A DNA stretch of 38,252 bases from an uncultured Pelagibacteraceae bacterium. GTDB taxonomy: Bacteria; Pseudomonadota; Alphaproteobacteria; Pelagibacterales; Pelagibacteraceae. The notes under the pieces are model-generated. The model was not told the DNA's origin. It saw only the letters and a list, made by a program, of their open reading frames with translations, and did not search any database. Shown here piece by piece: positions 5,231 to 24,448 of this stretch. Where the stretch lies: assembly GCA_902603665.1 (NCBI GenBank), contig CACKVV010000005.1, positions 1 to 38,252 on the forward strand, in the 5' to 3' direction. The stretch's first letter is position 1; each line of letters opens with the position of its first letter. The translations under genes were made by a program, and so were the position numbers.

Positions 5231-5664
5231 TTTTTGTTTTAACTTCTTTGATATTAATAACTCAACCAGTTAATGCAAAAGATGAATTTTTTCTTATGCT
5301 TAAGAATAAAAAAGTGAATGTGAGATATGGGCCAGGATTTGATTATCAAGTCAAATATATTTATAAAAAAATTCAACTTCCTTTAAAAGTTATTGATAAA
5401 AAAGAGAATTTTAGACGAATTATAGATCATAAAAATAATAATGGTTGGATACATGTTTCTCAACTAAGGAAAGCTAAGTCATTTATACCACTTGAAGATA
5501 AAATAATTTTCAAAAAACCGTCTAAATTTTCTAAACCTCTAGCCCAAATAAAAAAAGGTAGACTACTTTTAATAAAAAAATGTGAAACTCAGTGGTGTAA
5601 AATTCAAACCGGTGGATTTATTGGTTGGGTCAATGTTGAAAATGTTTGGGGATCAACTAATTAA
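5209..5664 (+). CDS. secreted SH3-domain (bacterial SH3) protein
   Basis: Signal peptide-like N-terminus (TTG start), VNVRYGPGFDYQVKYIYKK...NGWIHVSQLRKAK, GGFIGWVNVENVWG; SH3b-type repeats. Confidence 0.75.
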   Translation: MSVQKIIIFVLTSLILITQPVNAKDEFFLMLKNKKVNVRYGPGFDYQVKYIYKKIQLPLKVIDKKENFRRIIDHKNNNGWIHVSQLRKAKSFIPLEDKIIFKKPSKFSKPLAQIKKGRLLLIKKCETQWCKIQTGGFIGWVNVENVWGSTN

Positions 5665-6250
5665 AATCGCTGGACAGAGCTTTTATAGTGCTTTCTGAAA
5701 GCTTTGTTGAGTGTGAATACTCTTTATGATCTATTCCTAATTCGATGCTCACATTATTACCTTTAAATTTTGAAATTTGGTTTTGGTCAAATTCAAAATG
5801 TATAAATTGCACTGATGATGCTTTCCCCTCTGCAGACGTTCTATCTACATCTATTTCCGGTTTTCCATAAATTATGTCATTATCAATCTTAATAAATACA
5901 TTTTCTTCAACACCGCCTAATTTTCCAAGAAACGTAGCTCTAATTACTGGGTTATCAATTTCAAACATTAATGTTGAAACCAATTCTTTTCCATTTGGTA
6001 TCAAGGGATTATAAGCTGTTAACTCGTCATTAAGTTGTTCATCTCCACCTTTTTCTATATGTAGCATTTCTTGGACTTGAGCTAACATTGTTTCATAACA
6101 CTCAAAGTAAAAGGTTGCATAAGGACCAAGTGGAACTCTTCTATCTTTTTTGAATTCAACTAGCTCTTTTCTCATTTGACGTCTATTTTTTTCATATACA
6201 TCAGGGGCCAGTAAATCTGTTTTTTGAATAATTTTTTGGTTCTTAGGCAT
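5657..6250 (-). CDS. DUF3501 family protein
   Basis: RRQMRKELVEFKKDRRVPLGPYATFYFECYETMLAQVQEMLHIEKGG...ELTAYNPLIPNGKELVSTLMFEIDNP; recognised as DUF3501, typically beside rubrerythrin and Fe-S oxidoreductase. Confidence 0.82.
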   Translation of the reverse strand: MPKNQKIIQKTDLLAPDVYEKNRRQMRKELVEFKKDRRVPLGPYATFYFECYETMLAQVQEMLHIEKGGDEQLNDELTAYNPLIPNGKELVSTLMFEIDNPVIRATFLGKLGGVEENVFIKIDNDIIYGKPEIDVDRTSAEGKASSVQFIHFEFDQNQISKFKGNNVSIELGIDHKEYSHSTKLSESTIKALSSDFN

Positions 6251-7640: not shown

Positions 7641-7668
7641 TTTAGTGGACATCTTAATGTCCACTAAA
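7641..7668 (-). terminator. perfect 12-bp hairpin immediately after rubrerythrin stop (partial terminator or mRNA-stabilising element)
   Basis: TTTAGTGGACAT - ctta - ATGTCCACTAAA; no long U-tract on the minus strand, so termination is uncertain. Confidence 0.6.
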
Positions 7669-7674
7669 TTAAAT

Positions 7675-8091
7675 TTAAGCGATACTTTCTAAAGTTTTTT
7701 GAAACTTACCTGCGTGGGATTTTTCAGCTTTTGCTAATGTCTCAAACCAGTCAGCTATTTCATCAAAACCCTCGTCTCTAGCTGTTTTTGCCATACCAGG
7801 ATACATATCTGTATACTCGTGTGTTTCACCTTCAATGGCAGACTCTAGATTTGCCTTTGTTTCACCGATTGGTTTGCCAGTTGCTGGATCTCCTACTTCT
7901 TCTAGATACTCAAGATGCCCGTGTGCATGACCAGTTTCACCTTCTGCTGTTGATCTAAATACTGCAGCTACATCGTTAAAACCTTCAACGTCTGCTTTTT
8001 GAGCGAAATATAAATATCTTCTATTAGCTTGGCTTTCTCCAGCGAAAGCAGCTTTTAAGTTTTCTTCTGTTTTACTTCCTTTTAATGACAT
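7675..8091 (-). CDS. rubrerythrin (ferritin-like di-iron domain only)
   Basis: [37 protein letters not shown]...[14 protein letters not shown]...; AAGGAGA ribosome-binding site upstream of 8091. The ORF-track start at 8124 would place the start inside the promoter/operator. Confidence 0.93.
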
Positions 8092-8113: not shown

Positions 8114-8141
8114 CATATAATCATTCTAAACTACATGTCAA
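8114..8141 (-). promoter_or_regulatory. sigma70-like promoter of rubrerythrin
   Basis: Minus strand TTGACA (8136-8141) - 16 bp - TATATG (8114-8119), followed by AGGAG and ATG at 8091. Confidence 0.65.
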
Positions 8142-8153
8142 CAGTTTAGAATG
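8122..8153. promoter_or_regulatory. perfect 11-bp inverted repeat operator (candidate Irr site) around the rubrerythrin -35
   Basis: CATTCTAAACT (8122-8132) - 10 nt - AGTTTAGAATG (8143-8153); contains TTCTAAA/TTTAGAA half-sites. Confidence 0.65.
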
Positions 8154-8199
8154 GTTTTAATATAATTTGTATAGTATTGTTATTATTGATTATTTTTTG

Positions 8200-8619
8200 C
8201 TACTGATTATCAGTATCAAGTTTTACTAAAACTTCTACAGATTTAATTTTTTTTCCAGGAATTGATTTTTTAATATTAATTGGACCCACATCAACTTCTT
8301 CTAAATCAATCAATTTTTTTTCTGATATATCATAAAAATGATGATGGTCTGTAACATTTGTATCAAAATAACTTTGATTTGAGTCTATTGGAATTTCTTT
8401 AAGGTAGCCTTTTTTTTCGAATGCGTGAATAGTATTATAAACAGTAGCTAAAGATATTTTTTCATTTGCCTCGGTTTCAATTATTTTAACAAGATCATTT
8501 ATTGTGAAATGGAACGTTGTCTCCTTATTAAATAAAACTTCGCAAATTTTTATTCTCTGCTTAGTTGGTCTCAAACCAGAGTTTCTTAATTTGTTGATAA
8601 ATTCAACTGTAGTGGTCAT
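8200..8619 (-). CDS. irr: Fur-family transcriptional regulator, iron response regulator Irr-like
   Basis: LRNSGLRPTKQRIKICEVLF, ISLATVYNTIHAFEKKGYLKEI, VTDHHHFYD (HHH motif); adjacent to fabA as in many alphaproteobacteria. Confidence 0.85.
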   Translation of the reverse strand: MTTTVEFINKLRNSGLRPTKQRIKICEVLFNKETTFHFTINDLVKIIETEANEKISLATVYNTIHAFEKKGYLKEIPIDSNQSYFDTNVTDHHHFYDISEKKLIDLEEVDVGPINIKKSIPGKKIKSVEVLVKLDTDNQ

Positions 8620-8625
8620 TTATAA

Positions 8626-8642
8626 TTTATAATAATTCTAAA
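8626..8642. promoter_or_regulatory. candidate Irr box in irr/fabA divergent intergenic region
   Basis: TTTATAA-TAA-TTCTAAA, one mismatch from a perfect TTTAGAA-N3-TTCTAAA palindrome; shares ATTCTAAACTA with the rubrerythrin operator. Confidence 0.55.
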
Positions 8643-22706: not shown

Positions 22707-24038
22707 TTAAGCTGCTACCATTTTTTTATCTAATTTTCCAAATAAACTGTTCTGATTAGAGTTTTCTATTTTAACTTCTACCAACTTTCCTATAATGTCT
22801 TCTGATCCATCAAAGATAACTGAGGATAAATATTTATTTCTTCCAAAATATTTTTTTTGATTTTCTAACTTATTTTCAACTAGAACTTCAATAGATTGTT
22901 TTTCCATAGATTTATTAATTTGTATTTGATTATTGAATAATTTTTTTTGAATAATAATTAGTCTTTCTTTACAAATATCATTGTCAATTAACTTAGAATT
23001 TGAGGCTGTTGTGCCTGGTCTTGGGCTAAAAATAAAAGAGAAAGAATTTATAAAATTTATTTTATCTAGCAATTTAAGAGTATCATTGAAATCATTTTCA
23101 GTTTCACCAGGATAGCCAATAATAAAATCACTCGAGAATTTAATGTCATTATTAATATTTATTAATTTTTCATAAACTTTTAAATAGTCTTCAACTTTGT
23201 GCTTTCTATTCATCAAATGTAATATTTTATCTGAACCACTTTGAATTGGTAAATGCACAAATGGCATTAACTTTTTACTTAATGAATAACAATCTATTAG
23301 GTCATCGGTCATGTCTCTTGGATGGGATGTTGTATATCTTACTCTTATTAATTCAGAATACTGATCTAATTTTTTTATCAAATCAGAAATTCTGTACTCT
23401 TTGCCATTTTCAGAGTAAGAGTATGCATTTACATTCTGACCCAATAGAGTAATTTCTCTAACACCATTTTTAATCAGTTCCTCAGCTTCCTTAATTATTT
23501 GTTCAAAAGGCCTAGAATACTCAGGACCTCTGGTGTAAGGAACTACACAAAAATGGCAAAACTTATCACATCCCTCTTGGATTGTTAAGAAAGCTGAAAT
23601 TTTACTATTCTCGTTTTTAATATCATCGAAATAATTAAACTTTGTTACGGTATCAAATTCTGTTTCATCTATTTTTTTGTTTTTGGACTGATCTAAAATT
23701 AAATCATTAATTTTATGATAAGCCTGAGGGCCAATAACTATATCTATATAAGGTTCTCGTTTTAGCATTTCCTCATTCTCAGCTTGAGCAACGCACCCAG
23801 CAACTACTACAATTGGTTTTTTTTTTCCTTTAAAACTTTTTCTAACTCTACCTATTTCATGGTAGACCTTCTCTTTTGCTTTATCTCGAATATGGCAAGT
23901 GTTTAATATATAACAGTCAACATCGTTTTGATCTTCATTTTTAATGTATCCAATATTTTTAACAGTGTCATAGATTCGATTGGAGTCATATTCATTCATC
24001 TGACAACCAAAAGTTTTGATAAAAACTTTTTTTTGCAT
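22707..24038 (-). CDS. miaB: tRNA-2-methylthio-N6-dimethylallyladenosine synthase
   Basis: KTFGCQMNEYDS, IQEGCDKFCHFCVVPYTRGPEYSRP (radical SAM), LLGQNVNAY, HLPIQSGSDKIL. Confidence 0.97.
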   Translation of the reverse strand: MQKKVFIKTFGCQMNEYDSNRIYDTVKNIGYIKNEDQNDVDCYILNTCHIRDKAKEKVYHEIGRVRKSFKGKKKPIVVVAGCVAQAENEEMLKREPYIDIVIGPQAYHKINDLILDQSKNKKIDETEFDTVTKFNYFDDIKNENSKISAFLTIQEGCDKFCHFCVVPYTRGPEYSRPFEQIIKEAEELIKNGVREITLLGQNVNAYSYSENGKEYRISDLIKKLDQYSELIRVRYTTSHPRDMTDDLIDCYSLSKKLMPFVHLPIQSGSDKILHLMNRKHKVEDYLKVYEKLININNDIKFSSDFIIGYPGETENDFNDTLKLLDKINFINSFSFIFSPRPGTTASNSKLIDNDICKERLIIIQKKLFNNQIQINKSMEKQSIEVLVENKLENQKKYFGRNKYLSSVIFDGSEDIIGKLVEVKIENSNQNSLFGKLDKKMVAA

Positions 24039-24448
24039 TACTTATTTTTTTTGATACCGTAAAGTTCTAGTTTGTGATCAACTAATTCATAACCGTATTT
24101 TTCAGCTACTTTTTTTTGCAATTTCTCAATCTCATCATCAACAAATTCAATTATTTCACCTGTTTTGATGTCAATTAAATGATCATGGTGACTTTCACTA
24201 AGTTGTTCGTATCTTGCTTTTCCACCTTTGAAATCATGCTTAGCAACTATACCTGCCTCTTCAAATAATTTAACAGTTCTGTAGACTGTAGCTATACTAA
24301 TTTTTGAATCAATTTCTGAGACCCTGTTGTAGAGCTCATCTACATCTGGGTGATCTTGGGATTCACTCATAACTTTTGCAATTATGCGTCTTTGATCTGT
24401 TAATTTTACTCCTTTTGAAATACATTTTTGTTCTATTGTTTCAGACAT
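24038..24448 (-). CDS. fur: Fur-family metal regulator (Fur/Mur)
   Basis: KLTDQRRIIAKVM, DHPDVDELYNRVSEIDSKISIATVYRTVKLFEEAGI, SHHDHLI; between tsaB and miaB. Confidence 0.88.
   Translation of the reverse strand: MSETIEQKCISKGVKLTDQRRIIAKVMSESQDHPDVDELYNRVSEIDSKISIATVYRTVKLFEEAGIVAKHDFKGGKARYEQLSESHHDHLIDIKTGEIIEFVDDEIEKLQKKVAEKYGYELVDHKLELYGIKKNK

Follow-up and report, generated by a model that had tools for sequence, protein, structure and literature searches.

The irr-rbr locus and the rbr promoter

The window analyzed here is a stretch of 38,252 nucleotides from a Pelagibacter-like SAR11 genome, assigned to the Pelagibacteraceae by its named relatives, in which irr and rbr are encoded in a row. 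The gene rbr (7675–8091, minus strand) encodes a short rubrerythrin of 138 amino acids (PF02915) with no rubredoxin domain; rubrerythrin is a peroxidase/ferroxidase-like protein. Downstream of rbr and on the same strand lie the genes for a CCG-domain protein (PF02754; 6253–7578) and a DUF3501 protein (5657–6250), which complete an rbr-CCG-DUF3501 cassette. Among 80 rbr loci from many bacteria, a CCG gene was found within 2 kb downstream of rbr in 78 and a DUF3501 gene in 71, indicating that the rbr promoter heads a conserved cassette. A terminator-like hairpin with 12-bp arms is located between rbr and the CCG-domain gene (7641–7668), and the cassette may therefore be only partly co-transcribed.

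The neighboring gene irr (8200–8619, minus strand), from which fabA is divergent, encodes a regulator of the Fur superfamily (PF01475, E = 7.6e-20) that is closest to Irr models. Its product scored 128.4 bits against the NCBIfam model IrrA and 118.3 against Irr, with PerRB next at 58; since the two best scores fall under the curated equivalog cut-offs (150 and 170, respectively), the protein is called Irr-like here and not a confirmed equivalog; such cut-offs serve nomenclature and do not represent a biological property. The protein carries an HHH motif at residues 92–94, which is aligned in the Irr proteins of Pelagibacter and of the sister family, and HXH is the heme-binding motif in Irr. 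A second Fur-family protein in the window (24038–24448), for which the best-scoring model is Fur, has HHDH where Irr has HHH.

The earlier note placed the rbr promoter on the minus strand, with TTGACA as the -35 box and, 16 bp further, TATATG as the -10 box, and both elements were confirmed, at 8141–8136 and 8119–8114; both the -35 box (8136–8141) and the sequence ATTATAT at the -10 box (8114–8119) are conserved in relatives. The same note described a perfect inverted repeat of 11 bp wrapped around the -35 box, with half-site centers 21 bp apart. The repeat is indeed exact, as CATTCTAAACT-N10-AGTTTAGAATG at 8122–8153 with the -35 box in its spacer, and this sequence occurs a single time in the window's genome (58% complete); the remainder of the noted span of 8114–8153 is the weak outer arm of a candidate Irr box. 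Two such boxes were recognized by comparison with the Irr/ICE consensus, which we take to be TTTAGAATNATTCTAAA (17 bp), in a form refined from relatives. Candidate box A (8145–8161, minus strand) has a strong arm, ATTCTAAA, adjoining the -35 box and an outer arm that is weak (ATTAAAAC as read on the rbr strand), and its center at 8153 lies at about -46 from the predicted transcription start. Candidate box B (8114–8130, minus strand; center 8122) has its strong arm, TTTAGAAT, in the spacer between the -35 and -10 boxes, and its weak arm, ATTATATG, is shared with the -10 box. The two centers are 31 bp apart, or approximately three helical turns, and the reported repeat, a feature of neither strand in particular, is made up of the inner strong arms of A and B plus both box centers. 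Sites A and B each differ from TTTAGAATNATTCTAAA at 3 positions and the site in the irr promoter at 1; a search of the window with this consensus gave 12 matches against 3.3 expected. In a scan of the window with a weight matrix from the irr and A sites of the genus, site A scored 21.2, a value exceeded by one other match, and site B was weak by the same matrix (10.9).

The number of palindromes expected by chance was estimated from repeat counts for the window and for 40 shuffled versions of it. Perfect repeats with arms of at least 10 bp and a loop of at most 30 occurred 7 times in the window compared to a mean of 5.0 in the shuffles, and with arms of at least 11 bp and loops up to 30 about 1.3 are expected per shuffled window; the bare palindrome therefore carries no weight as evidence and was rejected as a significant signal. 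The repeat nevertheless stands above chance because its strong arms, ATTCTAAA and TTTAGAAT, are conserved. The outermost C/G of the repeat, which are the centers of the two boxes, vary among relatives, as does the G of the AG beside the arm of site B, and the 11-bp perfection is thus partly accidental. As judged from the comparison with relatives, the palindrome most likely represents an incidental junction of two boxes and is not itself the binding unit. The longest rbr reading frame begins at an ATG inside the repeat (8122–8124); translation more likely starts at 8091, just after AAAGGAG.

Conservation and turnover of boxes A and B in SAR11

The upstream regions of 127 rbr loci of the genus and 17 of the sister family were aligned on the -35 box, and two independent 17-bp ICE-like boxes were recognized across these 144 loci. 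Site A, approximately ATTAWAAN-N-ATTCTAAACT-R-TTGAC, is kept in all 144; it frequently amounts to a complete ICE in the sister family, and in locus L050 it is an exact one (TTTAGAATGATTCTAAA). Site B, TTTAGAATNATTATAT, occupies the spacer, its right arm being the -10 box. With at most 1 mismatch, the strong arm of B was found in 33 rows of the genus, always 14 bp past the end of the strong arm of A, which sets the box centers 31 bp apart. On a tree built from Irr, FabA and Rbr, site B is spread over the genus and has been lost in several clades. In the clade next to that of the window, the spacer lacks B and a copy, TTTAGAATCATTATTAA, is present downstream of the -10 box, and the deep-branching locus L108 lacks site A and has only B, in a version whose weak arm is improved (TTTAGAATGATTATAAA). 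Because B is absent from large clades, it is not essential.

Changes were counted per column on the same tree, yielding 0.25 for the strong arm of A, 1.75 for the strong arm of B (a figure that is biased, as the rows were chosen for having B), and approximately 8–10 for neighboring free columns. In rows without B, the columns corresponding to its strong arm change 11 times each. Of the two half-sites, whose conservation the earlier note proposed to check in related genomes, that of A has a strong arm that is nearly invariant across SAR11, and that of B is kept in part of the genus. That note had read the repeat as two imperfect Irr boxes placed back-to-back (8114–8130 and 8145–8161), and this reading is favored here, since A and B have been lost, moved and kept independently, which indicates that each arm belongs to its own box. 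The same reading also fits loci L111 and L115, outside SAR11, where nearly complete ICE boxes occupy the equivalent place at 32-bp intervals. In loci L047–L051 of the sister family, a GATAAT-rich stretch (TTGATAATARTTATCA-like) that resembles a Fur box was observed upstream of site A, beside the ICE box.

Candidate Irr boxes beyond the rbr promoter

A further candidate Irr box, TTTAGAATTATTATAAA, is located in the irr promoter (8626–8642, minus strand). In each of the 155 irr promoters of the genus that were checked, such a box lies within 4 mismatches of the genus motif, and in 148 within 2; in the genus this box is asymmetric and of the same type as the rbr box. irr is widespread in the genus, and its own promoter box is kept even where rbr is not adjacent. 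The matrices were then run over G012, a closed genome of the genus in which 5,000 bases read N. With the matrix from the irr and A sites of the genus, the irr promoter ranked first and rbr second genome-wide, a result that is partly circular; with a matrix from the irr sites alone, the rbr A site ranked 20th among approximately 2.7 million positions. Other high matches in this genome are mostly inside genes, and its site B is outside the top 40 matches of the first matrix. A consensus search of six genomes with at most 1 mismatch gave, apart from the irr promoters, matches near unrelated genes or within genes.

Outside SAR11, an ICE was scored upstream of rbr when it had at most 2 mismatches and lay within 250 bp, for which the chance level is approximately 0.0004 per region. 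By this measure an ICE was present at 12 of 21 loci that include an irr homolog, compared to 1 of 31 without (Fisher p = 1.5e-5). Exact or nearly exact boxes were found in rbr promoters of the sister family and of other alphaproteobacteria. Locus L115 has two near-perfect ICE boxes and L111 has three, 32 bp apart, and an irr homolog is encoded near rbr. In L111 they are found on a contig labelled Flavobacteriales, upstream of rbr (match at 1487); the label is possibly a binning error. The boxes in irr promoters, the matrix ranks, the difference between loci with and without irr, and the boxes of L111 and L115 point to Irr as the likely protein acting at these sites, as do the adjacent Irr-like gene and the HHH motif of its product.

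Proposed control of rbr and its relation to known systems

Sequence comparison argues for a model, which we hold to be reasonably probable, in which the repeat is a double Irr operator and Irr binds both boxes and represses rbr. When heme or iron is scarce, heme-free Irr dimers would occupy both boxes on the same face of the DNA and cover the -35/-10 region, denying RNA polymerase access to the rubrerythrin cassette; once heme could be had, Irr would dissociate and rubrerythrin would be made. Irr would probably also limit its own gene through the predicted box at 8626–8642. The positions of B, over the -10 box, and of A, against the -35 box, make repression at low heme the favored reading. Heme-free Irr binds ICE boxes, and whether it represses or activates depends on their position (review, PMC7762939); at R. 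sphaeroides mbfA, a box at the transcription start was taken as a repressor position (PMC3413700). Expression data are mixed. In Ca. P. ubique under iron limitation, rbr rose 1.57-fold and irr had no specific response (PMC2864753); the rise counts against double-operator repression, as it is opposite to simple low-iron repression, but R. sphaeroides mbfA also rose approximately 1.5-fold despite being repressed by Irr (PMC3413700). In stationary-phase sulfur limitation, rbr mRNA decreased and Rbr protein increased (PMC5069961).

The main rival is a dual arrangement in which box A, upstream of the -35 box, activates rbr in low iron as other upstream ICE boxes do, and B, over the -10 box, represses it when Irr is abundant, so that lineages without B would be activated only. 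This is unlikely, though it deserves the most serious attention among the alternatives: A is upstream of the -35 box and kept throughout while B is optional, the positional rule for ICE boxes allows for activation (PMC7762939), and the rise of rbr in iron-limited P. ubique is in the expected direction (PMC2864753). However, A is so close to the -35 box that a Fur-type dimer would probably cover the latter, and the 1.57-fold change is small and has its counterexample in R. sphaeroides (PMC3413700). Somewhat less probable still is that A is a real Irr box and B a neutral remnant, or a chance half-site, beside an ordinary -10 box. The weak arm of B consists of nothing but -10 sequence, which rows lacking B have as well, and the repeated loss of B would fit; yet across 33 rows of a deep tree the strong arm never shifts its register and changes 1.75 times per column, compared to approximately 8–10 in free columns, a replacement site is found downstream in one clade, and B is the sole box in L108.

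Two further explanations treat the repeat as a unit, and both are very improbable. A single palindromic operator of another regulator, centered on the -35 box, would account for the perfect arms and their 21-bp center spacing, but such palindromes are expected by chance, the arms are lost and moved separately, with A alone in rows without B and B alone in L108, and other lineages have nearly complete ICE boxes at the equivalent place. An RNA hairpin or terminator acting on transcripts that extend past the end of irr, encoded on the same strand, has the slightest probability of all: although the strand folds into a 12-bp stem and was flagged by a terminator scan, the fold reaches only z = -1.5 against shuffles, the A arm is almost invariant, the B arm is absent in many species, and predicted rbr transcripts begin downstream of the repeat. 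A search of the aligned relatives for stem changes that preserve base pairing found none, the changes in the B arm being uncompensated; a hairpin was rejected as the main constraint.

The double Irr operator favored above is built from known parts, as the Irr box and an Irr-controlled ferritin-like gene have both been described and the kind of switch is known. It resembles the ICE boxes of rhizobia and Rhodobacter in having a TTTAGAA...TTCTAAA-type motif near promoters of rubrerythrin-like genes or mbfA; however, the SAR11 boxes are asymmetric, with a strong and a weak arm, are doubled 31 bp apart, and in one case borrow an arm from the -10 box. Control by Irr of mbfA/blr7895, the rubrerythrin-like, membrane-bound ferritin of Bradyrhizobium and R. 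sphaeroides, is similar in that the target has a ferritin-like/rubrerythrin domain, whereas the candidate SAR11 target is a short rubrerythrin that heads an rbr-CCG-DUF3501 cassette next to irr. In tandem Fur-family operators, several dimers sit on phased sites over a promoter, a layout like that proposed for SAR11, but Irr reportedly binds in its heme-free state, whereas Fur does so together with Fe(II). What is apparently new, the 2006 reconstruction of alphaproteobacterial iron regulons aside, is the phased pair of boxes, the use of the -10 box for one arm, and the history of loss and relocation traced here.

SAR11 bacteria, which rank among the most abundant in the ocean, are often found in waters poor in iron. 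Tentatively, the SAR11 Irr regulon may have shrunk to essentially the irr and rbr promoters, with rbr under a phased double operator in which the -10 box serves as a half-site and the second operator has, depending on the clade, disappeared, moved or survived on its own. Ca. P. ubique encodes Fur and Irr, and Irr targets are not assigned in the accessible part of the source (PMC2864753). The proposal, if true, names the main SAR11 target of Irr and explains the control of rubrerythrin, and it offers over 100 natural variants of one operator from which to learn how repressor sites appear, move and vanish; the layout and evolution of this candidate operator can be traced unusually well across SAR11. 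Of 399 genomes sampled from the genus, only 123 had a match to rbr; among the most complete the figure was 19 of 57. The Rbr protein of the window is approximately 98.5% identical to that of the neighboring clade (L015-type loci) compared to approximately 68% for Irr, which could reflect strong constraint or recombination of rbr.
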